Source: Bacteroidota bacterium
Lineage (GTDB): Bacteria; Bacteroidota; Ignavibacteria; Ignavibacteriales; Ignavibacteriaceae
DNA: 64,000 bases
Reading direction: 5' to 3'
NCBI GenBank assembly: GCA_020161395.1
Contig: JAIUOE010000011.1
Span: 1-64,000 of the forward strand
Part shown: positions 3,329 to 47,251 of the stretch, piece after piece
How positions within the stretch are numbered: the stretch's first letter is position 1
Layout of the letters: each line of letters begins with the position of its first letter
Notes under the pieces: generated by a model
What the model saw: only the letters and a program-made list of their open reading frames with translations
Told to the model about the DNA's origin: nothing
Database searches by the model: none
Position numbers and translations under genes: made by a program

Positions 3329-6300
3329 ATGCCGCAGGATCAATTAGCCAGGTTTTTAGATGAACAGTATGTAATCTCAGACTTGCCATATCTCGAGATT
3401 GGAGACTCAATCGTACTATCGGGTATTACATACAAAATCATCGAGTCATTTTATGACATAGATTTTTTGCCTGATGGATTTTACTACAAAGCTTCAAACA
3501 GCGATAATGAATATTTCCTTATAAAGCTGCTTTTCAAATTTAGAAATGTAGCCAATGAGCCCAAAGCTGTGGTACATTCCGGACTGACCGGTTTGTCTCA
3601 CGAATCCCTTGCGGTTCCCGTCGAATTTGGTACTGGAATTAAGAAGTACAACTTCAAATACTGTTTCGAGATATATGAGCTTCCGGGTGATGTGGTGCCT
3701 TTGGTTAATGTGGATATCGCGGCAGGTGCAGTCAGAAACGGTCTCCTTCCACAAGTGAAGAACCTCCTTGAATATTTGCATGAAAATGATTTCTATCTTC
3801 CCCACCTGCATTTATGCAATTTATTTGTTTCTCCGGGAAAGTCCCCCAGGATAGTGTTGTTTGGTTACGGTCATGCTTTGATGAAGAGTAAATTTCCATT
3901 TATAGCAAAGACATCCTTCTCTGAAGGGAACCTCTGCAGATATTATTATTCCCCTGAAATCATCGAAGGTCTTTACTCTGAAACCAGCGACTATTATTCC
4001 GTGGGTATGATATTGCTGCGACTGTTTTATCCGGAGACTTTTGACTCTGCAGCATATCGTTCGATCGTTCGTAATGGCGAAGAACTAAAACCGGTTATAG
4101 ATTATAAAACCGATCTTTACGAGGTCAATACGATTATTGAAGGATTGACTCTGCATGAGGAACTGAACCGGTTTTCTTCAAAGGAAATTGAAGACTTGAT
4201 AGCAGGAAAAAGGGTCGTTCCTCTCTATTACGGAAGCTTCTTCCTTTTTAAAGACGATTTTGGTGAAGGTAAACTTCACAACCTTGGCGATTTTGTCGAG
4301 CTTGTTAAATCGGAACCAGAAAGATTTCTTGCGTTCAGCAAGGCTCCTCAAAATCTTAAAGCTCTGTCTGACTGGTTTAATGGTCTCGAGGGGGTTAAAG
4401 ATATAGCCGGACTGAAAAAGCGGATCATCAGATATCAAAATATCACTCCGAAATATTTCATCGAGGTAATTCTTCGTCACCTCCTTCCTACAAAAAATCT
4501 GATCTTGAATGAGATCGAATTCGATTTTTCTGATAAAACAGAGATTGAAAAGAATCTTCAGATATATTTCAGAAATCTTGAACATATTCATTATTACTTC
4601 CCCACTCACGATATACGCGCTGAACTCTTTTACTTTCTCCTTGCTGCGAGCGAAATCAGTGAATCCGATCCAACCGGCTATAAACTTCTAAGGGACGCAA
4701 GGGATACAGTTTGCAGTATTCTCGAGATTAATCCTGTCGGATTGATAGATTCATTCAGTACCCCCTCAATGACAGTTTTTCCGGCCCAATGGGCACGAAT
4801 ATTTCATGCTTTTATACCAAAAAAATATTTCAGGTCTTTCGAGGGAACGAAAATTCAAAACCTCGAGGATTTTGCTTTCTACCTCGCTCAGCACCCTGAA
4901 GTACTTACCGATGAGTTTCACTACTACGATATGATCAGATTTCTTGAAAATTTCGGTATAACTGACCTGAAAGGCAGAACCTACAAGGAAATTGTATTCG
5001 AGATTATGGACAAAAAAGTTGAATGCGACATCAACATTTCGAGAATCGATGAAATCGAAGCCGGTAAATATAAAATGTACTTTTCGTACCGGTATTCTCT
5101 GACTAATTTTTTCAAATCTCATGGTCTCGAACTTCCCTTCACCACGGAAATTAAACAGCAGTACAATTATGAGTTCAAGAAAAAGGGACTAAAATCTGCC
5201 TCCCAGACTGTAAAGCATTTCTTTTCGCATCTTGAAAAAGAGTTTTCCGTAAAAATCGAGAAAATTACAGAGGAGAAGAAAAGTGAAATCGCAAACCGGT
5301 TCAATGAAATTCTGGCAACTAAAATAAGATGGCAGACAGTCCTTGTAAACATCCTGATTATTGCGGGTACCGGTTTTCTGATTTCGGAGTTCGGATCAGG
5401 TCTTGTCTTGAATGAAAAGATGAAGTGGTACCTTAATTTGATGCCCGATTTTGAATTCTTTGCCATTAAACTGTTGCCGTATATCGTTATGACTGGCTTT
5501 GTGGGCATGCTCTATGTCCTGTCCCAAAACCTGAAACTGATCGGATTTATTGTCTTTACTCTTCTTCTTGCAACGGGCGGAGCAACCTGGTTTGTGTATG
5601 AAAAAGGAAGTAAAGCAATTGAAGAGGATGTCAGTTTGAAAAAATCGATTCTGACTGAACTTTATACAGGGCGCTCTGCAGAAACCAAACCTGAGGTTAT
5701 CTCCCCGAAGGAAATGGCGGCACTTTTTGATATCACATTTGGTATTGTAAATCCCGGATACAAGCCTCTTGTTCAATATTTGGCCGATCAGGAGAGATTT
5801 CGGGTTAAATCAAACAGCAGGGTGGTTTCCCGTACTCTCCGCAAATTACAGGATGATTCCTGGGCAGCCAAATTTGATCTCATCGACAATTTCTCCCTCC
5901 CGATTGAAAGAACCGTTGGAACCGTTCCAATACCCGATAACAACGGATTCTTTAACAGTCTCGGCTACTTTGGATTTAAGTTAAAGATGGATAAAATAAA
6001 AATTGAAGGCGGTGATAACTCTGTTTTTGGTATCGCTTTCAACAGATACTACCTGCTAATCACAAAATCTGAAGTAAAACTGTACAAAAAAGAGGAAGAA
6101 AACAAAGGGGACAAAAATGAATTTTTACTTCTTAGTCAGATGACAGGTTATGATTATTCGATTGAAGCTTCAGGTCCCGACAGAGAGGTTATGCCGGCAG
6201 GAGTGCTCGAAAAATTGTTCACTGAAAAAGAGCTTGTGAAAGGGAATCCGGAGATCAACAATTCTGAATTTGATCTGGAAATTACAGTTTTGTTTTCGTC

Positions 6301-6688
6301 AATTTCAGTCAGGATCAATGGGAAAGAAGTGATTAAAACGAACGAAAAGAATGGCTACACTGACCTCGATTATGAACATTTTAAACCCAATATATCTCTT
6401 GTTTTTGGAGTGGAAAGCGACTATTCATTCACTTCTGTCACCATTTCCCCATTACCTGATCCGACAGGTGACAGGAACTATCTGGCAAGGCACAATCTTA
6501 AAGGAAAAATCAAACCCGGTTCATCACTTTTTACGGATAAGGGTTTGTCTTCAGCATCTGCTGAAAAACCAACCGACAAGGAGATTCTTTTTGTTAAAAA
6601 TCTGGAAGGAAATGTTGTCACTCTTGAGAGTTCTGCCGGAAAAGTCTTTTACTTAAGTAAAAAGGATGTGGACGATATTTATTTCTGA
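3329..6688 (+). CDS. Large membrane-anchored pseudokinase with C-terminal extracytoplasmic domain
   Basis: This 1119-residue protein has a divergent protein-kinase fold at residues about 25-240. K66 (FLIK) fits the VAIK lysine. HRDLKPEN has become LPHLHLCN (157-164), with His in place of the catalytic Asp but Asn164 kept. DFG has become LFG (177-179). SPE at 208-210 and SDYYSVG around 220 fit the APE and SDxWSxG motifs. A long unassigned helical region follows (about 260-660), then three membrane segments (about 669-686, 711-731, 737-757). The last 340 residues look like a beta-rich, lectin/LamG-like domain. The catalytic losses suggest a signalling scaffold without phosphotransfer. It is transcribed alone. 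The fold call is by motif order only. Confidence 0.72.
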   Translation: MPQDQLARFLDEQYVISDLPYLEIGDSIVLSGITYKIIESFYDIDFLPDGFYYKASNSDNEYFLIKLLFKFRNVANEPKAVVHSGLTGLSHESLAVPVEFGTGIKKYNFKYCFEIYELPGDVVPLVNVDIAAGAVRNGLLPQVKNLLEYLHENDFYLPHLHLCNLFVSPGKSPRIVLFGYGHALMKSKFPFIAKTSFSEGNLCRYYYSPEIIEGLYSETSDYYSVGMILLRLFYPETFDSAAYRSIVRNGEELKPVIDYKTDLYEVNTIIEGLTLHEELNRFSSKEIEDLIAGKRVVPLYYGSFFLFKDDFGEGKLHNLGDFVELVKSEPERFLAFSKAPQNLKALSDWFNGLEGVKDIAGLKKRIIRYQNITPKYFIEVILRHLLPTKNLILNEIEFDFSDKTEIEKNLQIYFRNLEHIHYYFPTHDIRAELFYFLLAASEISESDPTGYKLLRDARDTVCSILEINPVGLIDSFSTPSMTVFPAQWARIFHAFIPKKYFRSFEGTKIQNLEDFAFYLAQHPEVLTDEFHYYDMIRFLENFGITDLKGRTYKEIVFEIMDKKVECDINISRIDEIEAGKYKMYFSYRYSLTNFFKSHGLELPFTTEIKQQYNYEFKKKGLKSASQTVKHFFSHLEKEFSVKIEKITEEKKSEIANRFNEILATKIRWQTVLVNILIIAGTGFLISEFGSGLVLNEKMKWYLNLMPDFEFFAIKLLPYIVMTGFVGMLYVLSQNLKLIGFIVFTLLLATGGATWFVYEKGSKAIEEDVSLKKSILTELYTGRSAETKPEVISPKEMAALFDITFGIVNPGYKPLVQYLADQERFRVKSNSRVVSRTLRKLQDDSWAAKFDLIDNFSLPIERTVGTVPIPDNNGFFNSLGYFGFKLKMDKIKIEGGDNSVFGIAFNRYYLLITKSEVKLYKKEEENKGDKNEFLLLSQMTGYDYSIEASGPDREVMPAGVLEKLFTEKELVKGNPEINNSEFDLEITVLFSSISVRINGKEVIKTNEKNGYTDLDYEHFKPNISLVFGVESDYSFTSVTISPLPDPTGDRNYLARHNLKGKIKPGSSLFTDKGLSSASAEKPTDKEILFVKNLEGNVVTLESSAGKVFYLSKKDVDDIYF

Positions 6689-35331: not shown

Positions 35332-36969
35332 ATGAAAATACTTTATTCTTCAGCAGAATCGCTGGCACAACAGCTTAAAGTGTACCTCGCCCCCGGTGGA
35401 ATGATTGTTCAATCCACCCCGGATGGCATTCTTGATTCAGCAAAACTCGAAAAACCCTCTGCTATAGTACTGTTGCCTGATGAAGTGAATATTGATGTTT
35501 TGCTTGCGGTAAGGTTTGCCTCCCCTTCCTCATTTATAATAGTTGCTGGATCGGATCTGCCCTCCGACTGGCTTAAAGAACTTTTTAACCATAACTGCAT
35601 CCACTTCTTTCTTGATGAACGAAACATTGAAGTAGAATCCGACCTTCTTAAACATTCATTTTGGAGCCATTATTATGTTCGAAGAAAAATCGATCAAACG
35701 GAAAACCGTACCGAATATTTCTTTGCCAGAATAAAATTCCTGCATGAGATTACCGTAAAGATGCTGGAAAACAAACCCCTTGGAAGACTCCTCGACGAGA
35801 TAATGCTTGCAAGTCAGCATGTTCTCGATGCTGAAAAAAGCTCTTTTATGCTTTATGACCCAAGGGACGGACTTCTTCACTTCCATGTTCTTGAGGGAGC
35901 ATCTGAAAATATAATAAAGGACAGACCTCTCGAGCTCGGAAGTGGAATTGCCGGGTGGGTTGCGAAACACAGAATTGCCCAGCTAGTGGATGATTGCTAC
36001 AGCGACAAACGGTTCAACCCGAATTTTGATAAAATTTCCAATTTTAGGACCCGCAATATGGTTTGCGCCCCTATTATTAAAAATGATGTGCTGCTTGGGG
36101 TGATTTCAGTTCTGAACAAGAGGGGTGACAGTAAATTTCTGGTTGAGGATGTACAACTTCTCGAGACTCTCGCAGGACAGTGTGCTGTAGCAATCGAAAA
36201 CGCACGATTGCTCGATTCCAAGATTGAAAATGAGGCAATAAAAAAAGAACTCGAGATGGCTTTTAAGATACAGCAAAAATTACTTCCGAGCGAACTGCCT
36301 GTTTTCAGATCGCTTTCTGTGTCGGCAAAATTGATTCCGGCTCAGGAAGTCGGTGGTGATTACTATTCCGTACACAGGTTGTCTGAGAACCGTTGTCTGC
36401 TGATGGTTGCAGATGTGTCCGGCAAAGGGATACCCGCAGCCTTGCTTGTTTCAACAATTGATGCCACTCTCCATACAATAATAAAACTCAAAGGAGATGA
36501 CCTCGATCCAAAGTTTATCGCCGAAAACATTAATTCAGTACTCTGTGATGTTACAACAAGTGAAAAATTTGCCACTGCCTGGATTGGTATTCTTGATACC
36601 GATTCCGGAAGTCTAAAGAGCATAAATGCCGGGCATAATGAACCAATTCTGTTCAAATTCTCCGATTCATCAATCACCAGATTGAGAAAGGGAGGGATTT
36701 TTCTTGGAGTGGTTCCTTTTGATTACGAAGTGGAGACAGTCGATTTCTCGAAAGATGATATAATAGTATTCTTTTCGGATGGTGTTGTTGAAGCCATGGA
36801 TACCAGACTAAATCTCTACTCCGATAAAAAACTGGTTGAACTGGTGGAACAGAATTCTCATCTCTCTTCAGATAAACTCGTCGATATGATTGTTAAAGAT
36901 GTTTTGCACCATGAGGAAAACACGCAACAAAGCGATGATATAACCATTTGCATTGCAAAGGGTTTGTAA
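35332..36969 (+). CDS. GAF domain PP2C-type (SpoIIE/RsbU-like) serine phosphatase
   Basis: This 545-residue cytosolic signalling protein has three parts. Residues 1-120 look like a receiver fold without clear phospho-acceptor residues (MKILYSSAESLAQQLKVYL), so possibly a pseudo-receiver. A GAF domain spans about 130-300 (GSGIAGWVAKH; MVCAPIIKNDVLLGVISVLNKR). A SpoIIE-type PP2C domain starts after IQQKLLPSELP, with EVGGDYY, ADVSGKGIPAAL, NAGHNEPIL and SDGVVEAMD; the metal-binding Asp residues are present. RsbU-like phosphatases control anti-sigma antagonists or other switches. It lies 50 bases upstream of the ion-transport operon in the same direction, so a regulatory link is plausible but unproven. 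Confidence 0.88.
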   Translation: MKILYSSAESLAQQLKVYLAPGGMIVQSTPDGILDSAKLEKPSAIVLLPDEVNIDVLLAVRFASPSSFIIVAGSDLPSDWLKELFNHNCIHFFLDERNIEVESDLLKHSFWSHYYVRRKIDQTENRTEYFFARIKFLHEITVKMLENKPLGRLLDEIMLASQHVLDAEKSSFMLYDPRDGLLHFHVLEGASENIIKDRPLELGSGIAGWVAKHRIAQLVDDCYSDKRFNPNFDKISNFRTRNMVCAPIIKNDVLLGVISVLNKRGDSKFLVEDVQLLETLAGQCAVAIENARLLDSKIENEAIKKELEMAFKIQQKLLPSELPVFRSLSVSAKLIPAQEVGGDYYSVHRLSENRCLLMVADVSGKGIPAALLVSTIDATLHTIIKLKGDDLDPKFIAENINSVLCDVTTSEKFATAWIGILDTDSGSLKSINAGHNEPILFKFSDSSITRLRKGGIFLGVVPFDYEVETVDFSKDDIIVFFSDGVVEAMDTRLNLYSDKKLVELVEQNSHLSSDKLVDMIVKDVLHHEENTQQSDDITICIAKGL

Positions 36970-37019: not shown

Positions 37020-38264
37020 ATGCAAACTTTATACCTTTTTATCCTCGTTCTCTTTTTTGGCTATCTCGGTACCGGATTGGTTCTAAGGAAGATATCCAAT
37101 AAGAATTATTTCCCCACCGGGACCGAGTATATTATTACGGGAATCATACTCAGTCCTGCACTTTTTTCCCTTATAAATCAGTTTCTTCCGGAATATTTTC
37201 AATCGCAAACGGGATCCGGGCTTATTCCTGCCTTGTCGCCTTTTATGAGCGCTGCCACAGGATTCATCGGCTTCTGGTTCGGGATGCACTTCAACATTGT
37301 GGAGCTGCTAAAGACTAATCGTGAGAGTGTCAGAATTGCATTATACGATTCATTGTTTTCCCCTCTTTTAACCGGAGCAGCCACCTTCGCAATTCTTGCT
37401 TACTTTTTCACTGATAAGCTGGATTCGGCTCAAATTCTCGCAGCATCAGCAGCAATCGCAATTATTATCTCGCTCCCGACCTCTTTCTTTATCGATAAAA
37501 TGAAGAATGAACACTCCATTTCGGGAAAACTGACAGAATCACTTCAGATCGCCACAAGGTTCTCCAAGTTCTTCTCCATTCTGCTGTTCGGAACAATCTT
37601 CCCCCTCTACCACTCAAGTCAGAATACAGCACCCGGAATGACATCGACTGAATTTTTAGTTATCAGTCTTGGTATAGCTGTTGCCGGAGGAATTCTCTTT
37701 TTTGTTTTTCTCGGCAGAGAATCGAATCAGCAAAAGATAGTCACCGGTACATTGGGCATCACTTTACTGGGAAGCGGCATTGCCTATTATCTGGGAATCT
37801 CCCCGCTCGCTCTCTGTTTTATAATCGGGGTACTTGCAGGTAATTTTTCCAAAATAAAAAAGGAAATCCTCTCTTCTATTGAAGACCTTGTATATCCCGT
37901 ATCTCTTGTAACCGTTATTTTTGCAGGAATAATGTGGACTCTGCCGGAGAGTGAAATTTCGTGGGCTATAATCCTGATTCTGCCAATAGTCAAAGTATTC
38001 TCAAAAATCCTGAGCCACAAAACTGCCATTAGTGCGGCTTTCGATAAAAAAAGTGTTAATAATCGTCAATATGAGATTTTTCTGCCCAATGATATTGTGA
38101 TTTTTTCACTTCTCATAAACTATGCCACCGTCATCAACAATTCACTGACTTCCATAGTGATCAACACAGCCATTATTTCGGCAGTCATATTTAATTTTTC
38201 AGGCAGTCATACTGCAAAACGATTCCTTGTTGAGTCAGACGAAATCCGGGGAGAAGTAAAATGA
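37020..38264 (+). CDS. CPA2-like cation/proton antiporter membrane protein
   Basis: This 414-residue protein is almost entirely hydrophobic, with about 12 membrane helices. It resembles the exchanger domain of the Kef/NhaP-type CPA superfamily (SAATGFIGFWFGMHFN; AASAAIAIIISLPTSFF; LGISPLALCFIIGVLAGNF). It has no RCK or other cytosolic domain. The stop overlaps the ATG of the next gene (ATGA, 38261-38264), which encodes a second and larger antiporter. The two may form a heteromeric exchanger. Ion specificity cannot be read from the sequence. Confidence 0.75.
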   Translation: MQTLYLFILVLFFGYLGTGLVLRKISNKNYFPTGTEYIITGIILSPALFSLINQFLPEYFQSQTGSGLIPALSPFMSAATGFIGFWFGMHFNIVELLKTNRESVRIALYDSLFSPLLTGAATFAILAYFFTDKLDSAQILAASAAIAIIISLPTSFFIDKMKNEHSISGKLTESLQIATRFSKFFSILLFGTIFPLYHSSQNTAPGMTSTEFLVISLGIAVAGGILFFVFLGRESNQQKIVTGTLGITLLGSGIAYYLGISPLALCFIIGVLAGNFSKIKKEILSSIEDLVYPVSLVTVIFAGIMWTLPESEISWAIILILPIVKVFSKILSHKTAISAAFDKKSVNNRQYEIFLPNDIVIFSLLINYATVINNSLTSIVINTAIISAVIFNFSGSHTAKRFLVESDEIRGEVK

Positions 38265-41200
38265 TTTCGTATTTCAGAAAATTTGCAGTCTTGGGGATTT
38301 TATTCGGTTTGATGATACTCACTCTGAATATTGGTTCTTCGGAGAGTCTTATATACCCTAAAATGATAGCTATTCTTGGATTTATAATTCTTGCTTCTTC
38401 CACAATTGGTGAGCTTTTTCAACGACTATCACTCCCCAGAGTGCTTGGATATCTGATCTGTGGTGCACTTTTCGGATTACCATTTTACCAGCTTTCGGAT
38501 ATCCCTGAACTAAACCTGATGACCGAAACAGTAGTTGGTAATTTGACTTTCGTCGCCAATATCGCACTCTCATTTATTGCATTTTCAGCAGGACTTGAAC
38601 TGAACCGGACAAGAGTATCGGGAATTTACAAAAACGCTCTCCTCACAGTCGGGTTCAAGGTGTTTTTTGTTTCACTGTTTGTCGGCGGTGGAGTTTTCCT
38701 CCTTTTCCCTTTCTTTTCTGAGAACCCTTTTGCAACTGATTATCTGATTTTCTCAGGGATTCTTATTTCCGTTCTGGCTATGGGATCATCTGTGGAATTT
38801 ACAACTGCCGAAGCCAGTGATGAGGCTGGTGAAAACCAGTTACTCGATTTCACCTTGGGTACCGTTGCTTTCAAAGAAGTTTTCAATCTTCTGGTGATAG
38901 CCGGATCCTTCTACTTTTTAGCAACAGTACCATCATTTAGTTCCCCTTCATTTTCACCCGACTATATTCAAAGTCTTTTGCGTGACCTGTTGCTATCTCT
39001 GATTGCCGGGATGATTTTGGGAATTCTTACAATATTATATGTCAGATTTATAAAAAGTGAAATTTCATTTTTCCTCATCATTCTTGTTTTGGCAGGAAGT
39101 TACGGATCGTCACTTTTTAACCTTCAGCCATTGATTGTTTTCCTGGTCGCTGGTATCGTTTCGGTGAACTTCATCAAAGATATCGACTTTAAATCCCATG
39201 TCGTTAACTTTAACCTCCCTGTCTTTTTGGTCTTTTTTACCCTGCTGGGGGCGTTTCTTAATTTTTCCCACATTCTCCCGGCGCTCTTCCCTGCGTTTAT
39301 ACTTTTCCTGCTTAGAATTGTCGCGATTTATGCTTCAGTAAAGATTTCTTCAGGAATTACCGGGATGTCTGCTCAAACCGGCAGATATGGATGGGCAGGA
39401 TTTATTTCACCAAACATGACTCTGACTGCTCTCATACTTTTAAGCATTTCTTCACTCTCTATCGGGTCTCCTTTTGTAACCGGAGTGATTTATGACTTTT
39501 TCCTCCTCAATTTGTTTTTTGGTCCATTACTTTTTAAACTTGCTCTCGTTCTAAGCAAAAAACCTGTCAGCCCTGCTCTTGAAGAGAAAAGTACGCCAGA
39601 ACCTGTAAAAGAAATTGTCGAAAAATTAGAGACTGTTGAAAAGGATTATCGAATCGTTTTTTCTGAACCAAATTTTATTGATCCCGATCTCAATAAAATT
39701 CTGTTCGATCTCTATTTTAAAGTTGTGGAACTTGCGAATGAGTTCAGAGACAGTTTTATTTCCAAAAGAAATTTTGAGACAGAAGAAATTTTGAATGAAA
39801 CCGTTGCGCTCTACAGGAACATGTTTTCGAGCATCGAGTCGATTCTTTTGTCAGGCAAAGAACCCAGAGCTATAAAATCAACTCTGCAAAGTCTTCGAAT
39901 CAATCAAACTGAAGTGCTGCTCCACAAGCTTGATGAGCGTAAAAATATCGAACGGGAGTTTGCCAATTCTGATACTCTCATCAAAAGACTCTTAAATGAA
40001 GTCATGCAACTTACAGATGAACTCTCCGAAGAGTACCCTCTTGATGTGGAGATTGATTATGCCTCTTATTCGAAAAAACCTCTCTCATTTAAGTTATTCA
40101 TCCTAAAACTTAAAATCAAAGCTTTTTTCCAGACCTTTTTTACGGGGCACAGCCAAACAGCAGTAAAGGTTAATCTTAAAAATATTGCCAGATACTATCT
40201 GAATTCGAAAACGACTCACGAGTTGTTGGAAACTATAAATTTAACGGGTGCCGACAGGTTAAACCTGTTTAGAAAATTAAAGGCGATACATAAAAATTAT
40301 ATCAGTTACCTCGATGAATTAATTCTGTTGATCGGCCAGGAAAGAAGCAGCCTGGGATTTGTGACAGTTTTTTTCATGCGTTACGAAGAACTGAAAGCAA
40401 TGTTTTTTAATGAACTCGATGTTTATAACTCGGAACAATCTTCCACTGTTCAGGAAATAGAAAAAAGACTAAGTTACGCCTTTGCCTCTCCCTACAATTC
40501 ACTCCTCGATGAAATTGCCGATATTATGCTGGTAAAAAAACGGGGCGATGAGTTAAACTTCCTCGAAGCTTTTGAGAAGGCACAGTTGGAGAAGGAAAAA
40601 CTCCTCGACTCTATCAGGTACTGGGTTATATATTATCAGGGCATTATCGGGTTGATTCAGAAAGAGCTGTATATCTACCGATTCGAAATTCAACTCAACA
40701 ATTTTATCGACAGAGCCTTGATAAATCTGGCAGATGAAGTCAGTGACCGAATCCGTGCCGGTTGTCCTAAAGTAGCTGATCAGTTTAGAACTTTTTCAAA
40801 AGAACTTGGGGAACTGATTCCCCTAGGTTACAGCGCTTTAAAGATCTATTCTGACAGCTTCAGGATGTCGTTCGCCATACCTGAGCTCACCTCATTAATA
40901 AGAGATCTGGAAAAAACCGCCCGCAGCCGGAAAATAAGAACTTTTTTTGATACCCTGATCAACGGAATTAAATCAGTCTCACTTGGGTTGCCGGAAGAAT
41001 CTGTTTTCCTGGATGAGAATGATTTGGTACTCCCAAACCGTACTCCTGAGTTCAAGGAACTGAAAACCTACAAAATAAGGTCACTAACCTCCCATTTCCT
41101 TCTCCTGAAATTGCCACGGGAAATTGGCGAAGTTAACGAGTTTCTCGTTAACTATATTGATGGAGCCCTGAAAGAAATTCGTAACCTTGAGTCGAGCATA

Positions 41201-42757
41201 AACTACTACTTCGATTCGATGGTAAAAAGACTGCAGGAGGATCCGGATGACCATGACAGCATAAAAGCAATACTTGAATCTCTGGATGAAAATTTCATCT
41301 CCCGGTTAAGGGAAATTGAAAATAACAACGATAAACTTGAACTTGCGATTAATAAGCAGGTGGCAAGTAAAACCGCTTTTGCAGTTACCGAAGTAAAAAG
41401 ATTGATTTCTCTCTCAGCAGTCAACTACCAGAGTTCGGCACTCGATGCGGAAGAATTCAGGTTAAAGATTTACTATTCGATGAGAAAAGTAAAGGTGCTT
41501 ACAAAGAGATTCTTTCGCTCCATATATATTTCTGTCAAAAACACCCTGTCCCGTTTTGTCTTCCCCTTGTTCAAAAGAGGTGTTGAGAACTTAAAATATC
41601 TCTCGGGCAGGTTAACAGTAAATTACCGTGAAGACCTGTTTAAAACACAGGAAATTCTTAACTCACTCCCCTTTATCTACAGACGCCTTTTTGACGGCAC
41701 ATCGTTGGAGTCCAGCGAACTGTTTCTCGGGAAAGATGAAATAAAGTCGATCGTAAACCAGGCGAAGGAACGGTTTAAAGCGAAACTTCCTGCCTCAATC
41801 CTTATTACAGGTGCACCCGGATCCGGGAAAACTTCATATATCTATTATATTAAAAAGGATTTATTACAACCCGGCGAGTATATCGAACTCTATTTCCTTG
41901 AGAGAATCAGCACCGTTGAAGAACTTAGAAGACTGATTTCGGATGCTCTGGGCTACAATGAACTTAAAACAGTTGAAGCGATTATCATCGATTTGAACGA
42001 GAGATTCAGGAATAAATTTGTTCTGCTTATTAATCTAAACAAGACTTTTGTTCGAACTGTTGATGGCTTCGAAGCATTGAAAACAATGCTTTACATTATC
42101 TCGATGACAAGTTCCAATGTTCTTTGGGTGGCAACAATTCAAAGCATCGGCTGGCAGTTCATAAAAACAAACTTCAAGGCAGCTTCACTTTTTAACTTCT
42201 CCGTTTCATTGGAAGAATTAAACAGACACAGGATAAAAGACATTATCCTGCACAGACAGCACACCACCGGTTTTGCCTTCAGATTTACCCGGGATGACCT
42301 CTACCTGTTGAGGAAAAGACTGTTTAAATCCTCCAAGCCATTGGAGGATCAATCCTACCTGGAAGAAGTCTATTTTCAGCGTCTCACTGAGTATGCAGAC
42401 GGTAATATAGTTGCAGGTATGAATTACTGGTTGAATTCAATCTCAAAGATCGAGGAAAACACACTCGTAATTCACACTTACAAGTCGTTTCCACTTATCG
42501 ATCTTTCTTTCCTCGATATCTCCATGATTACCGTTCTGTATACTGTAATGCTTCACGGCGGTTTGAAGAGGAGTCAACTGGCACAGTCATTGAATATTTC
42601 GGAAAAACAGGCAGGAGAATACCTGGAGAAACTTCTCTCTTTGAACCTCTTGAGGATTGGTGAATTGAGTAAAAGCCATGACTATTATTATATAAACAAA
42701 TTCAAGTTCAAATCGGTACAGAATGAACTTCAAAAACGGAATATACTGCCATGGTAA
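38261..42757 (+). CDS. Giant antiporter fused to helical, AAA-type ATPase and winged-helix domains
   Basis: This 1498-residue protein has a CPA-type exchanger membrane domain at residues 1-430 (LGYLICGALFGLPF; IAFSAGLELNRTRVSG; GMILGILTILYVRF). About 740 residues of mostly helical, charged cytosolic sequence follow. A P-loop ATPase domain has GAPGSGKT at 1184-1191. The Walker B position reads FVLLINLN (1253-1260), where the usual Asp/Glu is missing. A C-terminal winged-helix-like segment (RSQLAQSLNISEKQAGEYLE, about 1434-1470) completes it. I know of no named family with this order. It could be an exchanger gated by nucleotide binding. It overlaps both neighbours (4 and 7 bases) within the ion operon. 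Confidence 0.75.
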   Translation: MISYFRKFAVLGILFGLMILTLNIGSSESLIYPKMIAILGFIILASSTIGELFQRLSLPRVLGYLICGALFGLPFYQLSDIPELNLMTETVVGNLTFVANIALSFIAFSAGLELNRTRVSGIYKNALLTVGFKVFFVSLFVGGGVFLLFPFFSENPFATDYLIFSGILISVLAMGSSVEFTTAEASDEAGENQLLDFTLGTVAFKEVFNLLVIAGSFYFLATVPSFSSPSFSPDYIQSLLRDLLLSLIAGMILGILTILYVRFIKSEISFFLIILVLAGSYGSSLFNLQPLIVFLVAGIVSVNFIKDIDFKSHVVNFNLPVFLVFFTLLGAFLNFSHILPALFPAFILFLLRIVAIYASVKISSGITGMSAQTGRYGWAGFISPNMTLTALILLSISSLSIGSPFVTGVIYDFFLLNLFFGPLLFKLALVLSKKPVSPALEEKSTPEPVKEIVEKLETVEKDYRIVFSEPNFIDPDLNKILFDLYFKVVELANEFRDSFISKRNFETEEILNETVALYRNMFSSIESILLSGKEPRAIKSTLQSLRINQTEVLLHKLDERKNIEREFANSDTLIKRLLNEVMQLTDELSEEYPLDVEIDYASYSKKPLSFKLFILKLKIKAFFQTFFTGHSQTAVKVNLKNIARYYLNSKTTHELLETINLTGADRLNLFRKLKAIHKNYISYLDELILLIGQERSSLGFVTVFFMRYEELKAMFFNELDVYNSEQSSTVQEIEKRLSYAFASPYNSLLDEIADIMLVKKRGDELNFLEAFEKAQLEKEKLLDSIRYWVIYYQGIIGLIQKELYIYRFEIQLNNFIDRALINLADEVSDRIRAGCPKVADQFRTFSKELGELIPLGYSALKIYSDSFRMSFAIPELTSLIRDLEKTARSRKIRTFFDTLINGIKSVSLGLPEESVFLDENDLVLPNRTPEFKELKTYKIRSLTSHFLLLKLPREIGEVNEFLVNYIDGALKEIRNLESSINYYFDSMVKRLQEDPDDHDSIKAILESLDENFISRLREIENNNDKLELAINKQVASKTAFAVTEVKRLISLSAVNYQSSALDAEEFRLKIYYSMRKVKVLTKRFFRSIYISVKNTLSRFVFPLFKRGVENLKYLSGRLTVNYREDLFKTQEILNSLPFIYRRLFDGTSLESSELFLGKDEIKSIVNQAKERFKAKLPASILITGAPGSGKTSYIYYIKKDLLQPGEYIELYFLERISTVEELRRLISDALGYNELKTVEAIIIDLNERFRNKFVLLINLNKTFVRTVDGFEALKTMLYIISMTSSNVLWVATIQSIGWQFIKTNFKAASLFNFSVSLEELNRHRIKDIILHRQHTTGFAFRFTRDDLYLLRKRLFKSSKPLEDQSYLEEVYFQRLTEYADGNIVAGMNYWLNSISKIEENTLVIHTYKSFPLIDLSFLDISMITVLYTVMLHGGLKRSQLAQSLNISEKQAGEYLEKLLSLNLLRIGELSKSHDYYYINKFKFKSVQNELQKRNILPW

Positions 42758-43812
42758 ATTTCAGACCTCTTCTTGTTTTGTGTCTGTTCTGTTCCCTGCA
42801 ATTCGCCGGTGTTTCACAAACCGTGGAAAAAGTAAAAAAGGACTCTGCAGGACACACGATTTTACCTGTAAAAGACAGCGTATTAAGAATTGATACGATC
42901 GTTCGAATTGACAGTGTGTACATTTTTGACACGGTAAGAATTAGCGATCAGAATACTACCAGAGACAGTAATTTTTTCCCGACATCATTGATCATTGTAG
43001 ATTCATCATCCAATAAGCTCCCCTCACTCGATGATATGGTGAACTCAATTAATTTCGTAAAACAGTTGGGAATCTTCAAACTCGTCCTCATTCTGTTTAT
43101 TATTGCGATCGCTTCAGGTTTGACTTTTGCATTAAGGATTCTCTCAAAATATCTTTCGTTCAAGGGAGAAAAATTTGGCAGAGTTCTGAAAGGTATCTCT
43201 GTCGCGAGAACATTTGTTTGGCTTGTGACATTTTATTCGATTCTTAAACTGGTTTTTGTTCAGACGCAATTCCTTCTGCTTCTCTTTATTCTCATATCAC
43301 TCGTTCTTTTGGGGATTGCAGCTCTGCCACTGCTCGGTAATTTGTTAGGGAGGATTTTCATCCTCTCAGGAAATATGTTCAATCATAATGACTACATCAA
43401 AGCCGGAATCCATAGAGGATTCGTTCAGGAAATCGGGTTAAAACATGTAACCATTCTGAGTGATGAAGGATCAGCTATTTTTATTCCAAACTCATACTTC
43501 ATCAACAACCCTTTTGAAAATGTAAGCAGAGGTAAAAAAGAAGAGCAAATCTCGCTTGATTTTGACTTCCCGTCAAAGTATGACCCCGAAAGAGTGCTTG
43601 GAATCCTGAAAGAAGCAGCGATTTCAAATCCTTATTTGTACATCAATAAAGAACCGGAAGTTTTTATTAAACAGGTCGATTTCATTAATGACCGTTATAC
43701 AATAAAAGTGAACCTTTATTTGTACGACTCAAACTATATTGACGAATTATATGACTCTATTAATAAATCGGTTTTAGCTAAATTGACCACCGATCAATCT
43801 GAGAATAAATGA
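42751..43812 (+). CDS. MscS-like mechanosensitive channel
   Basis: This 353-residue protein has an N-terminal signal-like segment, then a 75-residue extracytoplasmic stretch rich in Asp and Val. Three membrane helices follow (LVLILFIIAIASGLTFAL; VARTFVWLVTFYSILKLVF; LLLLFILISLVLLGIAALPL). The MscS beta domain shows GFVQEIGLKHVTILSDEGSA and FIPNSYFINNPFENVSR. It lacks the long repeats of MscK. It overlaps the upstream fusion by 7 bases and TrkH by 4 bases, so it belongs to the K+/osmotic operon and probably releases solutes on hypo-osmotic shock. Confidence 0.85.
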   Translation: MVNFRPLLVLCLFCSLQFAGVSQTVEKVKKDSAGHTILPVKDSVLRIDTIVRIDSVYIFDTVRISDQNTTRDSNFFPTSLIIVDSSSNKLPSLDDMVNSINFVKQLGIFKLVLILFIIAIASGLTFALRILSKYLSFKGEKFGRVLKGISVARTFVWLVTFYSILKLVFVQTQFLLLLFILISLVLLGIAALPLLGNLLGRIFILSGNMFNHNDYIKAGIHRGFVQEIGLKHVTILSDEGSAIFIPNSYFINNPFENVSRGKKEEQISLDFDFPSKYDPERVLGILKEAAISNPYLYINKEPEVFIKQVDFINDRYTIKVNLYLYDSNYIDELYDSINKSVLAKLTTDQSENK

Positions 43813-45593
43813 AGAACGAACCAATCAGGCAAAGTATCCAGGCTAAAATTCTTAGAGCCCTGAGAATATTTCTTATTTTTTCTGCAACAGCCGGATTTGC
43901 AACCATAATCCTCGAGCATGGTTTTCAAATCAATTTTGTTGAGGAAGCATTAATCAATCTTCTCTCCGTGGCAGTGGTTGGTATCTTCATGATTTATCAA
44001 CTTGCCAACATTACTTTTGCTGAAAATAAAGGTCAGTTTCTCCGGGCACATCTTTTTGAGTTCCTCGTAATTTTCTTCATCATCATCGAGGGAATACTGA
44101 CTCTTTCTGGAGTCAGTATCATTCAGAATATTGGCACAACATTTAACATTAAAAATATCACTTTTCTATATGTTGTTCTGGCACAGGCATACATTGTAAT
44201 TGGCATTATTCTCGGAGCAATCAGGTACAATAAAAAGATTCTGGAATCGAAAATACACCCCGCCAGACTCTTCATGCTCAGTTTTGCGGTGACCATTCTC
44301 ATTGGAGCTCTGCTTCTAATGTTACCTGCTGCAAGCAATATTCCCGGTGGTTTACGATTCATTGATGCGTTGTTTACCTCTACGAGTGCCGTATGCGTTA
44401 CCGGGCTGGCTGTAGTGGATACGGGTCTCGATTTAACCCGGTTCGGACAGATAGTACTGATGATGCTCTTTCAGATCGGCGGACTTGGCTTGATGACCTT
44501 CACAACTTTTTTTGCTATCTTTCTCTCCGGCGGACTTGGAATCAAAGAAAAATTTATTCTCCGTGAGATGATGCATGAAGATAATATCGGGGCAATCGGC
44601 AAGGTACTTTCAAGTCTTATCATTCTTACTTTCACTCTTGAGGGAGTTGGTGCTACGGTTATTTTCTTCTCAATAAAGGATTTTTATCCCGGAAATGTTG
44701 AAGAAGCAGTATTCAGCAGCATTTTTCACGGTATTTCAGCTTTTTGTAATGCCGGTTTTTCGATTTATTCGATGAATCTGGCTGATCCGATGATAAAAAA
44801 CAACTATGTCTTTAACACGACAATATCGCTTCTGATTATCTTTGGAGGTTTGGGCTTTACCGCCATTCTTGGAATGCCAAGTTATATCAAAGTCAATACG
44901 AAACCATTGTTTGCAAAATTAAATATGCCTCTACAGGTTAAAATAGTATTTCTCACGACGGCTGTGCTGATAGTTGGGGGTACGCTCACAACCTACCTTC
45001 TGGAAATCAATTCATCGTTAAAGGGATTGTCAACGGGTGATGCATTATTCCATTCCTATTTCCAGGCTGTATCAGCAAGAACGGCAGGATTCAACACAAT
45101 CGACATATCTGCCTTTACTGACCCGACTACATTCTTTTATTGTTTCCTGATGTTCATCGGTGCCTCTCCGGGTGGTACAGGCGGTGGAATAAAGACGACT
45201 ACATTCACGGTTGTTTTTCTTTCAATTCTGATGTACAGAAACAGTACGAGGGATTTGAGGATAAACAGGAGAACCATACCGACCGATGTGATAAATCTTG
45301 CATTTATGATCTTTTGGCTTTCGGTATTATATATACTCCTCGGAGTGTTTATTATGAGCATTTCAGAACCGGGAAAGAAATTTATCGATCTGATGTTCGA
45401 AGCATTTAGTGCAGCAGGAACAGTGGGATTATCCAAATCGGTGTCACCCAACCTCTCTGATGTCGGCAAATTGGTTGACATTCTGTTGATGTACATCGGC
45501 AGGATAGGTCCACTGACAATAATTTTCAGTTTTATTGGTGAGAGGGACAGCAGCCGGTACTCTTATCCAAAAGACAACATTTCAATGTTATAA
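43809..45593 (+). CDS. TrkH/KtrB-type potassium uptake pore
   Basis: This 594-residue K+ translocating subunit has the four P-loop filter segments in order: STSAVCVTGLAVVD, ISAFCNAGFSIY, SARTAGFNTIDIS and SAAGTVGLSKS, each with its filter Gly. The first roughly 150 residues add extra membrane helices ahead of the conserved core, so it is longer than a typical KtrB (about 450). The start ATG overlaps the MscS stop (ATGA). The next gene encodes its TrkA/KtrA regulator. Confidence 0.92.
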   Translation: MKNEPIRQSIQAKILRALRIFLIFSATAGFATIILEHGFQINFVEEALINLLSVAVVGIFMIYQLANITFAENKGQFLRAHLFEFLVIFFIIIEGILTLSGVSIIQNIGTTFNIKNITFLYVVLAQAYIVIGIILGAIRYNKKILESKIHPARLFMLSFAVTILIGALLLMLPAASNIPGGLRFIDALFTSTSAVCVTGLAVVDTGLDLTRFGQIVLMMLFQIGGLGLMTFTTFFAIFLSGGLGIKEKFILREMMHEDNIGAIGKVLSSLIILTFTLEGVGATVIFFSIKDFYPGNVEEAVFSSIFHGISAFCNAGFSIYSMNLADPMIKNNYVFNTTISLLIIFGGLGFTAILGMPSYIKVNTKPLFAKLNMPLQVKIVFLTTAVLIVGGTLTTYLLEINSSLKGLSTGDALFHSYFQAVSARTAGFNTIDISAFTDPTTFFYCFLMFIGASPGGTGGGIKTTTFTVVFLSILMYRNSTRDLRINRRTIPTDVINLAFMIFWLSVLYILLGVFIMSISEPGKKFIDLMFEAFSAAGTVGLSKSVSPNLSDVGKLVDILLMYIGRIGPLTIIFSFIGERDSSRYSYPKDNISML

Positions 45594-45608: not shown

Positions 45609-46298
45609 TTGAAAAAGAAATATGTAATTATCGGACTGGGTGATCTCGGAAGAAGCATCGCCCAATCACTGGGTAAATCCGGTTCGGAAGTGCTTGCCAT
45701 TGATGTTGATGAGGATGCAGTAAACGACATAAAAGATCTGGTTGATACTGCTGTACGCGCTGATTCAACGGACGAAAAGGCTCTGACAATGCTCGGTATA
45801 GACGGCACAGTTGATGCAGCGATTGTCGCCATTGGTCCCGATAAATTTGAGACAACGATCCTTACATCGGTTTTGCTTCTCGAAAAGAAGGTTAAAAAAG
45901 TTGTTGCCCGCGCATCTTCAGAATTACAGGAGAATATTTTAAAGAAACTGGGCGTTCATCAGGTATTGATACCCGAAGTCCAGGTCGCAAGACAGATTAT
46001 CAGCCTTGTGACAAGTCAGGATGTGCTGGACACCATAACGCTTGGCGAAGACTATAATATTGTCCATCTGAAAAACCCCAGGGCGTTTATCGGAAAAAGT
46101 TTGCAGGAACTTGACCTCCGGATTCGATATAATGTAAACCTTATCACCATCAAACGAATGTCAAAGAGTTATAAAGGTAGCGCCCAGGAACCTCATGTGG
46201 AAATATATGGCGTACCGACCGCATCCACAATCCTCGAGGAAAACGATGTACTGATTGTCTTTGGACGCGATAAGGACATTAAAAAAATTGTGGAATAA
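45609..46298 (+). CDS. TrkA/KtrA-type RCK potassium channel regulator
   Basis: This 229-residue cytosolic gating subunit has one RCK_N Rossmann domain (YVIIGLGDLGRSIAQSLG, then ADSTDEKALTMLGI) and one RCK_C domain (DVLIVFGRDKDIKKIVE at the end). Single-RCK length fits KtrA more than the double TrkA of E. coli. The start is TTG at 45609, preceded by GAGG. It is the partner of the TrkH/KtrB pore 15 bases upstream and would respond to ATP/ADP or NAD(H) to open it. Confidence 0.93.
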   Translation: MKKKYVIIGLGDLGRSIAQSLGKSGSEVLAIDVDEDAVNDIKDLVDTAVRADSTDEKALTMLGIDGTVDAAIVAIGPDKFETTILTSVLLLEKKVKKVVARASSELQENILKKLGVHQVLIPEVQVARQIISLVTSQDVLDTITLGEDYNIVHLKNPRAFIGKSLQELDLRIRYNVNLITIKRMSKSYKGSAQEPHVEIYGVPTASTILEENDVLIVFGRDKDIKKIVE

Positions 46299-46303
46299 TT
46301 GAA

Positions 46304-47251
46304 ATGTTCCCTTCTGCGAATGAGATTTGCGATGCACACCAAAGGATATTTCCCTATGTGCATAAAACTCCTGTTTTAACTTCGAAAAGCATTGATGAAC
46401 TCGCCGGAGCCTCGCTTTTTTTCAAGTGCGAGAATATGCAAAGGGGTGGTGCATTCAAAGCAAGAGGTGCATTTAATGCCTCTCTGCAGTTAACGAATGA
46501 GGAGCTGGCAAAAGGTGTTGCCACACACTCCTCAGGTAATCATGCCACTGCACTTAGTCTCGCTGCCCGTACTTTGGGCATTCCTGCTTACATCGTCATG
46601 CCATCCAACTCAAAACGGATAAAGATTGTTTCTGTTGAGGCTTTTGGTGGTAAAATTACTTTTTGTGAACCTACTCTTCAGGCGAGAGAATCAACTCTGG
46701 AAGAGATAGTTCAAAAGACAGGTGCTGTTTTCATCCCTCCTTATGATGACTACCGGATTATTGCCGGGCAGGCAACAGCAGCAAAGGAACTGATCGAGGA
46801 GATCGAAAACCTCAATGCAATAATTGCTCCGGTTGGTGGCGGCGGTCTTCTTTCAGGAACTGCCCTATCAGTAAATTATTTCTCAAAGGGATGTGCTGCT
46901 TACGCCGCTGAACCCGCAGGGGCTGACGATGCATGGAGATCGCTCAAAGCTGGTAAAATTATTCCCTCCATCAACCCTGTTACCATCTCCGACGGGCTGC
47001 TGACATCCCTCGGGACACGCAATTTCCCCATAATACAGGAACTCGTTTCAGAGATAATCCGGGTCGAAGAGAGTGAAATCATATCCGCAATGCGTTTGCT
47101 CTGGGAACGGTTGAAAATTGTAGTCGAACCAAGCTCTGCAACAGTCCTGGCTGCTGTGTTGAAATCAAAAGATTTGTTCGAAGGCAAAAAAACAGGGTTG
47201 ATACTATCGGGAGGAAATGTCGATCTCTCCGAGATGAAGAATTATTTTTGA
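46304..47251 (+). CDS. Threonine/serine dehydratase-like PLP enzyme
   Basis: This 315-residue fold-type II PLP enzyme has the Schiff-base Lys52 in RGGAFKARGAFN, the phosphate-binding SSGNHATAL, and GGGGLLSG. It lacks the C-terminal ACT domains of biosynthetic IlvA and has the length of catabolic threonine dehydratases and serine racemases, which cannot be told apart here. It follows the KtrA-like gene by 5 bases, so it is probably co-transcribed with the ion operon. A metabolic link is not obvious. Confidence 0.87.
   Translation: MFPSANEICDAHQRIFPYVHKTPVLTSKSIDELAGASLFFKCENMQRGGAFKARGAFNASLQLTNEELAKGVATHSSGNHATALSLAARTLGIPAYIVMPSNSKRIKIVSVEAFGGKITFCEPTLQARESTLEEIVQKTGAVFIPPYDDYRIIAGQATAAKELIEEIENLNAIIAPVGGGGLLSGTALSVNYFSKGCAAYAAEPAGADDAWRSLKAGKIIPSINPVTISDGLLTSLGTRNFPIIQELVSEIIRVEESEIISAMRLLWERLKIVVEPSSATVLAAVLKSKDLFEGKKTGLILSGGNVDLSEMKNYF

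Follow-up and report, generated by a model that had tools for sequence, protein, structure and literature searches.

The window analysed here is a 64,000-nucleotide stretch of a Bacteroidota genome of the Ignavibacteriaceae lineage (GenBank assembly GCA_020161395.1, contig JAIUOE010000011.1, positions 1–64,000). At positions 38261–42757 it carries an open reading frame (ORF) that starts with ATG and encodes a protein of 1498 amino acids (aa), in which an antiporter-like membrane domain of the CPA type is joined to a module occupying the C-terminal two thirds of the chain. This module, designated HAW, consists of a duplicated helical rod, an AAA+/STAND-like ATPase, and a winged helix. The gene belongs to an operon on the forward strand with the order ANT1 (CPA-like), CPA::HAW, MscS, TrkH, and TrkA. 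ANT1 (37020–38264), defined by its ORF and by profile comparison, encodes a separate CPA-like membrane protein of 414 aa; the gene of an MscS-type mechanosensitive channel (42751–43812, 353 aa) matches PF00924 (E 3.6e-14, 53.1 bits versus a cut-off of 20.2); that of a TrkH K+ uptake subunit (43809–45593) matches PF02386 (E 4.8e-57) and, with 297.9 bits, stays below the cut-off of 331.15 of TIGR00933; and that of a TrkA/KtrA-type regulatory subunit (45609–46298) matches PF02254 (TrkA_N, E 2.9e-22) and PF02080 (TrkA_C, E 5e-9). The stop of ANT1 overlaps the start of the fusion gene by 4 bases, the fusion and MscS genes overlap by 7 bp, and the MscS stop overlaps the TrkH start by 4 bases, which links these four genes; TrkA begins 15 bases after TrkH.

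HAW occurs in three forms. Among 75 non-redundant HAW genes, 48 encode free proteins of about 1000 aa, 20 are fused to a CPA antiporter as in the window, and seven are fused to a protein of the SLC12 type resembling K-Cl cotransporters. This set was obtained from 86 rows by removing nine same-genome repeats, the 94%-identical congener L062, and the contig-end fragment L102; the near-identical L096 and L098 are both counted, and L104, with 25 matching residues at a contig end, was not entered. The free proteins, which include those in the records of Gracilimonas mengyeensis DSM 21985 and Fodinibius salsisoli 1BSP15-2V2, have at most one predicted transmembrane (TM) segment or none, as fits a cytosolic protein. 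The N-terminal half of an SLC12 fusion (L054) matches the K-Cl cotransporter model TIGR00930 over residues 2–670 with E 6e-118, below the model cut-off, and in Pfam this part gives an AA_permease match, the SLC12 model falling just under its cut-off.

An MscS-type gene on the same strand adjoins HAW in 74 of the 75 cases, and the remaining HAW gene ends at a contig edge. A neighbour was defined as an MscS frame less than 600 bases away, and the largest gap listed is 28. The channel gene lies downstream of the CPA and SLC12 forms and of 39 free forms, and upstream in eight high-GC free forms (including L048). All 15 loci fetched after profile building are also beside MscS, making 14 of 14 new ones, as L198 repeats L095, and the same holds for all 25 short loci from the phylum search that lie outside the 75-gene table, many of them from the same genomes. 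Seven HAW loci had seemed to be without MscS; on re-examination, five of them have an MscS frame and two end at a contig edge. The genomes contain 2–8 MscS genes each (109 in 20 genomes), and adjacency by chance would amount to a few tenths of a percent per gene, assuming about 3,500 genes per genome. An earlier interpretation of the window made from the letters alone (the sequence-only reading) had placed the ion exchanger at the centre and did not list ANT1, MscS, or TrkH/TrkA. The exchanger as the defining partner is ruled out by the 48 free and seven SLC12-fused genes among the 75; the constant partner is the MscS-type channel, and its gene is the key to the case.

The association was also examined in the reverse direction, with a profile of the HAW-paired MscS proteins searched against 294 genomes of the class at a cut-off of 1e-35. 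Twenty hits were obtained, and the 19 strong ones (E < 1e-69) all lie beside HAW; many of them were members of the profile, so that the result is informative in that the 272 genomes lacking HAW gave no strong hit. The profile did not match the MscS of three genomes with the SLC12 form alone, which is shorter and divergent. On a quick MscS tree, in which several branches are long and the placement of L039 and of the SLC12-paired MscS is unsure, 21 unpaired MscS proteins sampled from HAW genomes are all placed to the same side of a single supported branch. Three genomes (G070, G482, and G330) have two HAW types, and each of these HAW genes stands beside its own kind of MscS; in a fourth two-HAW genome (G517) an MscS gene lies beside each of them. 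The closest solved chains to the paired MscS are those of MscM (E 5.8e-27) and MscK (E 5.9e-26). HAW and this MscS subfamily thus occur together and adjacent in the lineages read, and the paired MscS form a separate subfamily whose strong members are located only beside HAW in the class searched.

On a phylogenetic tree of the ATPase part, the 20 CPA fusions lie on one side of one branch (support 92/90) and the seven SLC12 fusions on one side of another (100/100). The CPA fusions are open frames without internal stops in several genera, families, and phyla, two of the 20 (L067 and L077) being cut by a contig end; they were found in the class families f1, f2, and f54, in one more family of the phylum (L039), and in KSB1 and Acidobacteriota records. 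The full-length order is also present in the congener (94% identity) and in three genomes of a sister family (31–32%), and the nearest named relative, the Ignavibacteriaceae metagenome bin L065, shares 64% identity over the ATPase part. The full-length protein was detected in five of 296 genomes of the phylum, the window's own included, and further genomes of the class carry the same order. Its presence at 20 loci in different genomes shows that the fusion exists and has been inherited, and rules out an assembly error. A search with the ATPase part found no second copy in the window's own genome. In the phylum search, 59 of the 296 genomes were matched, four of them by the CPA part alone, which leaves the ATPase part in 55; it is present in 22 of 294 genomes of the class, in 47 of 92 Balneolaceae-type genomes (family f30), in seven of 82 genomes of the phylum of the KSB1 record, and in seven of 199 of the phylum of the Acidobacteriota record. 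In several of the Balneolaceae-type loci the sizes and orientations of the neighbouring genes look alike.

The ATPase core (residues 1134–1412; 41660–42496) opens with the signature LPFIYRRLF at residue 1136 and contains the Walker A P-loop GAPGSGKT at residues 1184–1191 (41810–41833), exactly where the sequence-only reading had put it in an ORF of the same extent and length. The signatures LPxxYRRLF and ILxRHxxSG are the family's own. The modelled core aligns with TnsC (7mcs_B; VIA-align Z 14.9, rmsd 4.9, 262 aligned) and with Cdc6 (7jgr_G; Z 14.3, rmsd 3.7, 243 aligned), and also resembles Apaf-1 type structures. The window copy scores below the curated Pfam thresholds (AAA_16, 23.2 bits versus 32.6; nSTAND3, 17.6 versus 27.2), and the free member L036 passes two generic models (AAA_22, 28.9 versus 27; AAA, 25.2 versus 21.2). 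The Walker A lysine is kept in all 20 CPA-fused, all seven SLC12-fused, and 34 of the 48 free members. The Walker B strand, FVLLINLNK from residue 1253 (42017–42043), lacks its acid in the window copy and the congener (LLINLNK); L065 reads LLIDLHK, and an acid in either aligned column is found in the other 19 CPA-fused, in all seven SLC12-fused, and in all 48 free non-redundant members. Since the lysine is replaced in some members and the Walker B acid is lost in the window, ATP turnover cannot be essential everywhere. The ion exchanger with built-in nucleotide sensing that had been proposed for the window is upheld in part: its P-loop is intact, its Walker B acid is missing, and sensing is plausible rather than proven. 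The C-terminal domain (about residues 1420–1478; 42518–42694) is modelled as helix-helix-helix-strand-strand, which is the layout of a winged helix, and the family profile gives weak matches there to the chains of ScaR, YusO, and TFIIE-alpha (E 5.5e-4 to 7e-3), in agreement with the winged helix suggested earlier.

The rod, designated HEL (residues 431–1130; 39551–41650), had been described as a long helical cytosolic part, and structure prediction gives a two-lobed bundle of very long helices that is almost wholly helical, with small strands between the lobes (pLDDT 84.2, pTM 0.73). A profile comparison of its halves (residues 470–760 versus 761–1120) aligned 159 columns with a probability of 94.4% and E 9e-08, matching residues 570–754 (39968–40522) with residues 892–1051 (40934–41413); HEL therefore looks like an internal duplication, with the limit that helical make-up can inflate such scores. 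HEL is homologous across the groups according to hhalign (CPA versus free, 99.8%; CPA versus SLC12, 98.0%; free versus high-GC free, 99.6%), the comparisons taking in 18 of 19 CPA and 27 of 36 free HEL segments. Foldseek returned no matches for HEL at E 0.001. The best VIA-align row was a designed bundle (Z 14.4, rmsd 3.5, 185 aligned), and the resemblance to dynamin (5oxf_C; Z 10.7, rmsd 5.0, 250 aligned) is within helical-bundle noise. A short ATPase form without HEL, located beside MscS (L038, 8933–10273), is common to several genomes of genus g72.

The membrane domain of the fusion (residues 1–430; 38261–39550) has 13 TM segments by a simple hydropathy count. No Pfam family, PF00999 (Na_H_Exchanger) included, matched the window copy at E 0.01 or at E 0.1; PF00999 was found in 13 of 15 homologous N-terminal domains (best E 2.7e-25), the two without it being the window copy and L039. 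In L065 it reaches 71.8 bits versus a cut-off of 26.2, and L076 matches the CPA2 model TIGR00932 with E 8.4e-7, below its cut-off. The CPA-type exchanger assigned to residues 1–430 from the letters alone is thus borne out by its homologues. The pair K205-E206 in TM5 (38873–38878) aligns to the place of the usual ion-binding pair; of the other 14 fusions aligned, 13 have K-D here and L039 lacks the pair, and the acidic residue presumably has the meaning it has in CPA proteins. By hhalign, ANT1 is related to the CPA domain of the fusion with a probability of 99.4% and E 3.1e-21, PF00999 being found in one of 13 ANT1 homologues (L076). Where the fusion has its TM5 carboxylate, the aligned residues of the window's ANT1 are S-K, with no acid, as is the case in 12 of the 13 homologues, two of which (L034 and L069) have an aspartate one residue later. 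The exception is L039 (11050–12459 and 15279–16460), in which an aspartate stands at the TM5 place in the separate CPA-like gene and none in the fused one; the carboxylate may have switched halves there, in rows that align poorly (19% identity) and match no Pfam model. Taken together, the alignments suggest an antiporter of two unlike halves, one of which carries the carboxylate. A Pfam search of the fusion at E 0.1 returned no TrkA_N or KTN Rossmann domain and gave weak AAA-type matches instead.

The complete operon with TrkH and TrkA was found in the window and in Melioribacter-type genomes, and these neighbours suggest K+ as a likely ion of the fused antiporter. No Trk genes lie within four genes of HAW in family f54, and they are absent near nearly all free forms read; L055 has TrkH about 5 kb away. 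In L072 (Acidobacteriota) and L076 (KSB1), the order is ANT1, a gene of 446–453 aa, a membrane protein gene of 481 aa, CPA::HAW, and MscS; the first of the two inserted genes is TrkA-like in L072, the second is TrkH in the similar L039, and this order is a second arrangement of the same parts. In L185, a CPA antiporter gene that is not fused (3395–4720; PF00999, E 5e-26) precedes a free HAW gene by about 1.5 kb, and more MscS-type genes are close by; the set may exist here in unfused form.

Several further loci were noted. In L189 (6427–11175) of the Acidobacteriota phylum, a membrane segment seems to lead straight into the ATPase with no HEL between them, which may be a further architecture, and an MscS gene (5564–6415) adjoins this ORF; the locus had resembled a third carrier fusion, but the first 560 or so residues of its 1583-aa frame look like a spurious high-GC frame. 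An upstream gene in L147 turned out to encode a thiolase. L133 and L134 (G299:C2:85895–86919) represent a second copy of the ATPase module that looks degraded: it is spread over two frames and contains a single in-frame TGA. Just upstream of the window operon lies a gene with GAF and SpoIIE-type (PP2C) phosphatase domains (35332–36969), which was left out of the system, being conserved among the loci examined only in the window's genus and L065. Located 3' of TrkA is a gene for a pyridoxal phosphate (PLP)-dependent enzyme (46304–47251), the best NCBIfam match of which is the beta-hydroxyaspartate dehydratase BhcB (424.5 bits, below the cut-off of 550).

No description of HAW was found in the openly licensed (CC) literature of PubMed Central. 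Among the members scanned, Pfam gave generic AAA/STAND matches only, and NCBIfam and PADLOC gave nothing above weak P-loop matches to HAW; in PADLOC, the five proteins scanned had weak matches only, to mad8 (18 bits, E 3.9e-4, in the P-loop region) and CasR (E 0.062). HAW seemingly represents an undescribed bacterial protein family, and the earlier expectation of an undescribed system, with a domain order for which no named family could be found, is supported. The closest known arrangement is KefC. The glutathione-gated K+ efflux antiporters KefC and KefB resemble the fusion in joining a CPA-type membrane domain to a C-terminal cytosolic nucleotide-binding regulator, and in KefC control over the CPA domain is exerted by a nucleotide-binding KTN domain together with an added subunit (PMC10224563). 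However, the regulator of KefC/KefB is a Rossmann-type KTN/RCK domain, whereas in the fusion its place is taken by a different module, HEL with the AAA+ ATPase and the winged helix; moreover, unlike KefC/KefB, HAW also exists free and is paired with an MscS gene, so that the fixed neighbour is a channel.

The paired channel shares the MscS beta domain (PF00924) with MscS, MscK, and MscM, but forms a separate subfamily beside HAW; to our knowledge, no MscS with a dedicated AAA+ partner is known. Like STAND, Cdc6/Orc1, and TnsC-type AAA+ proteins, HAW has an ATPase core followed by a C-terminal winged helix, while its own signatures, the N-terminal duplicated rod, and the ion-channel neighbour distinguish it from them. 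The N-terminal half of the second fusion clade (TIGR00930, AA_permease) is like SLC12/K-Cl cotransporters, but the chain continues into HEL and the ATPase and is followed by the MscS gene. The Trk/Ktr K+ uptake system is represented in the window operon by TrkH and TrkA, which are separate from the HAW protein.

The joining of HAW to CPA or SLC12 carriers and the presence of TrkH/TrkA in the window's lineage indicate that the surrounding genes handle K+ and turgor. We propose that HAW acts in the cytosol as a nucleotide-switched regulatory subunit of an MscS channel dedicated to it, with a link to ion carriers in some lineages, and that it serves the control of turgor and K+; we assign to this reading a probability of about 0.62. 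Contact between HAW and MscS, gating by nucleotide state, and passage of the signal by the rod are inferred from the likeness to STAND/AAA+ proteins and from the fusion to two unrelated carriers. By analogy with other STAND/AAA+ switches, the ATPase would alternate between ADP-like and ATP-bound, probably oligomeric, states; the HEL rod would pass to the channel and the fused carrier either this change or a signal that it senses (crowding, ionic strength, or membrane tension, for example); and one switch could thereby set fast release through MscS, slow exchange by the CPA pair, and Trk uptake. In the window copy, which has the P-loop intact and lacks the Walker B acid, nucleotide would still be bound, but hydrolysis would be slow or absent. 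A more elaborate version, which we consider tentative and less likely than not, is that HAW represents a novel type of osmotic control, in which a nucleotide-switched AAA+ ring docks on the cytosolic face of MscS and, via the fusion, on K+/H+ antiporters or K-Cl cotransporters, so that ATP state and cell volume would jointly set emergency release, slow efflux, and K+ content; MscS would be gated by ATP and tension, and the antiporter would be an obligate heterodimer in which one half has the carboxylate, namely the fused half in most lineages and perhaps the separate half in L039.

Several observations weigh against the proposed regulatory subunit. The Walker A lysine is replaced in 14 of the 48 free members, the Walker B acid is missing in the window and its congener, and the distribution of the ATPase part in the phylum, the class, and the Balneolaceae-type genomes is patchy. 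HEL-less short forms with frames of 440–506 residues (L010/L038, L026–L029, and L031) are found beside MscS; since they keep this neighbour, the partnership seems to centre on the ATPase part. A single weak hit of the paired MscS type (1.9e-36) comes from a genome without HAW, the CPA-paired MscS do not form one group in the quick MscS tree (three changes), and the pTM of the whole-HAW model is 0.53, which makes the arrangement of its parts unsure.

Among the alternatives, one could hypothesise that HAW acts as a scaffold that helps to assemble, localise, or tether the channel and carriers, with a chaperone-like ATPase and no gating. The very long helical rod, the generic resemblance to a bacterial dynamin stalk (at the noise-level Z given above), and the constant pairing of HAW with MscS are consistent with this, but the joining to two unrelated carriers is not readily explained by it, and we know of no need for such a factor in other MscS proteins; we regard the scaffold as unlikely. 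A slightly less probable explanation is an anti-phage or stress-suicide function, in which a STAND-like ATPase senses an invader, assembles, and opens MscS as a membrane-depolarising effector. The STAND/AAA+ resemblance, the patchy distribution, the decay of Walker A in some members, and the weak mad8 match in PADLOC agree with such a role. However, the five proteins scanned had no strong PADLOC match, no relative was confirmed in viral contigs in one scan with one pattern only, the gene of the window's lineage is in an operon with K+ uptake genes, the neighbours in several Balneolaceae-type loci are similar, in size and orientation alone, and a fusion to ion carriers would be hard to account for.

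That HAW is a membrane-tethered transcription regulator, the winged helix of which binds DNA and controls osmotic genes, appears very improbable: the domain does show weak matches to DNA-binding regulators, but in STAND and Cdc6-type proteins the ATPase usually includes a winged helix at its C-terminus, and the pairing with a single channel gene suggests that the partner is a protein. The wide occurrence of free HAW might speak for two genes wrongly joined in sequencing or assembly, or for a fusion confined to the window, but this can be practically dismissed, since the search for homologues with the same domain order found 20 non-redundant CPA fusions in several genera, families, and phyla, lying on one side of one branch, and the join is neither unique to the window nor is the ATPase part elsewhere always a separate gene.

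MscS-type channels are usually treated as self-contained tension valves. In the records of Bacteroidota-type bacteria, KSB1, and Acidobacteriota, ATPase genes are fixed beside one MscS subfamily, and the carriers fused to HAW in two clades should move K+ or K+ together with Cl-. If the proposed function is correct, turgor release, ion exchange, and energy state are linked in some bacteria through a single switch. SLC12 proteins regulate cell volume in animals (PMC7889885), and the SLC12-HAW form thus offers a bacterial parallel. The presence of free forms in named strains means that the idea may be directly testable. Altogether, these data suggest a novel bacterial means of controlling cell pressure and potassium.

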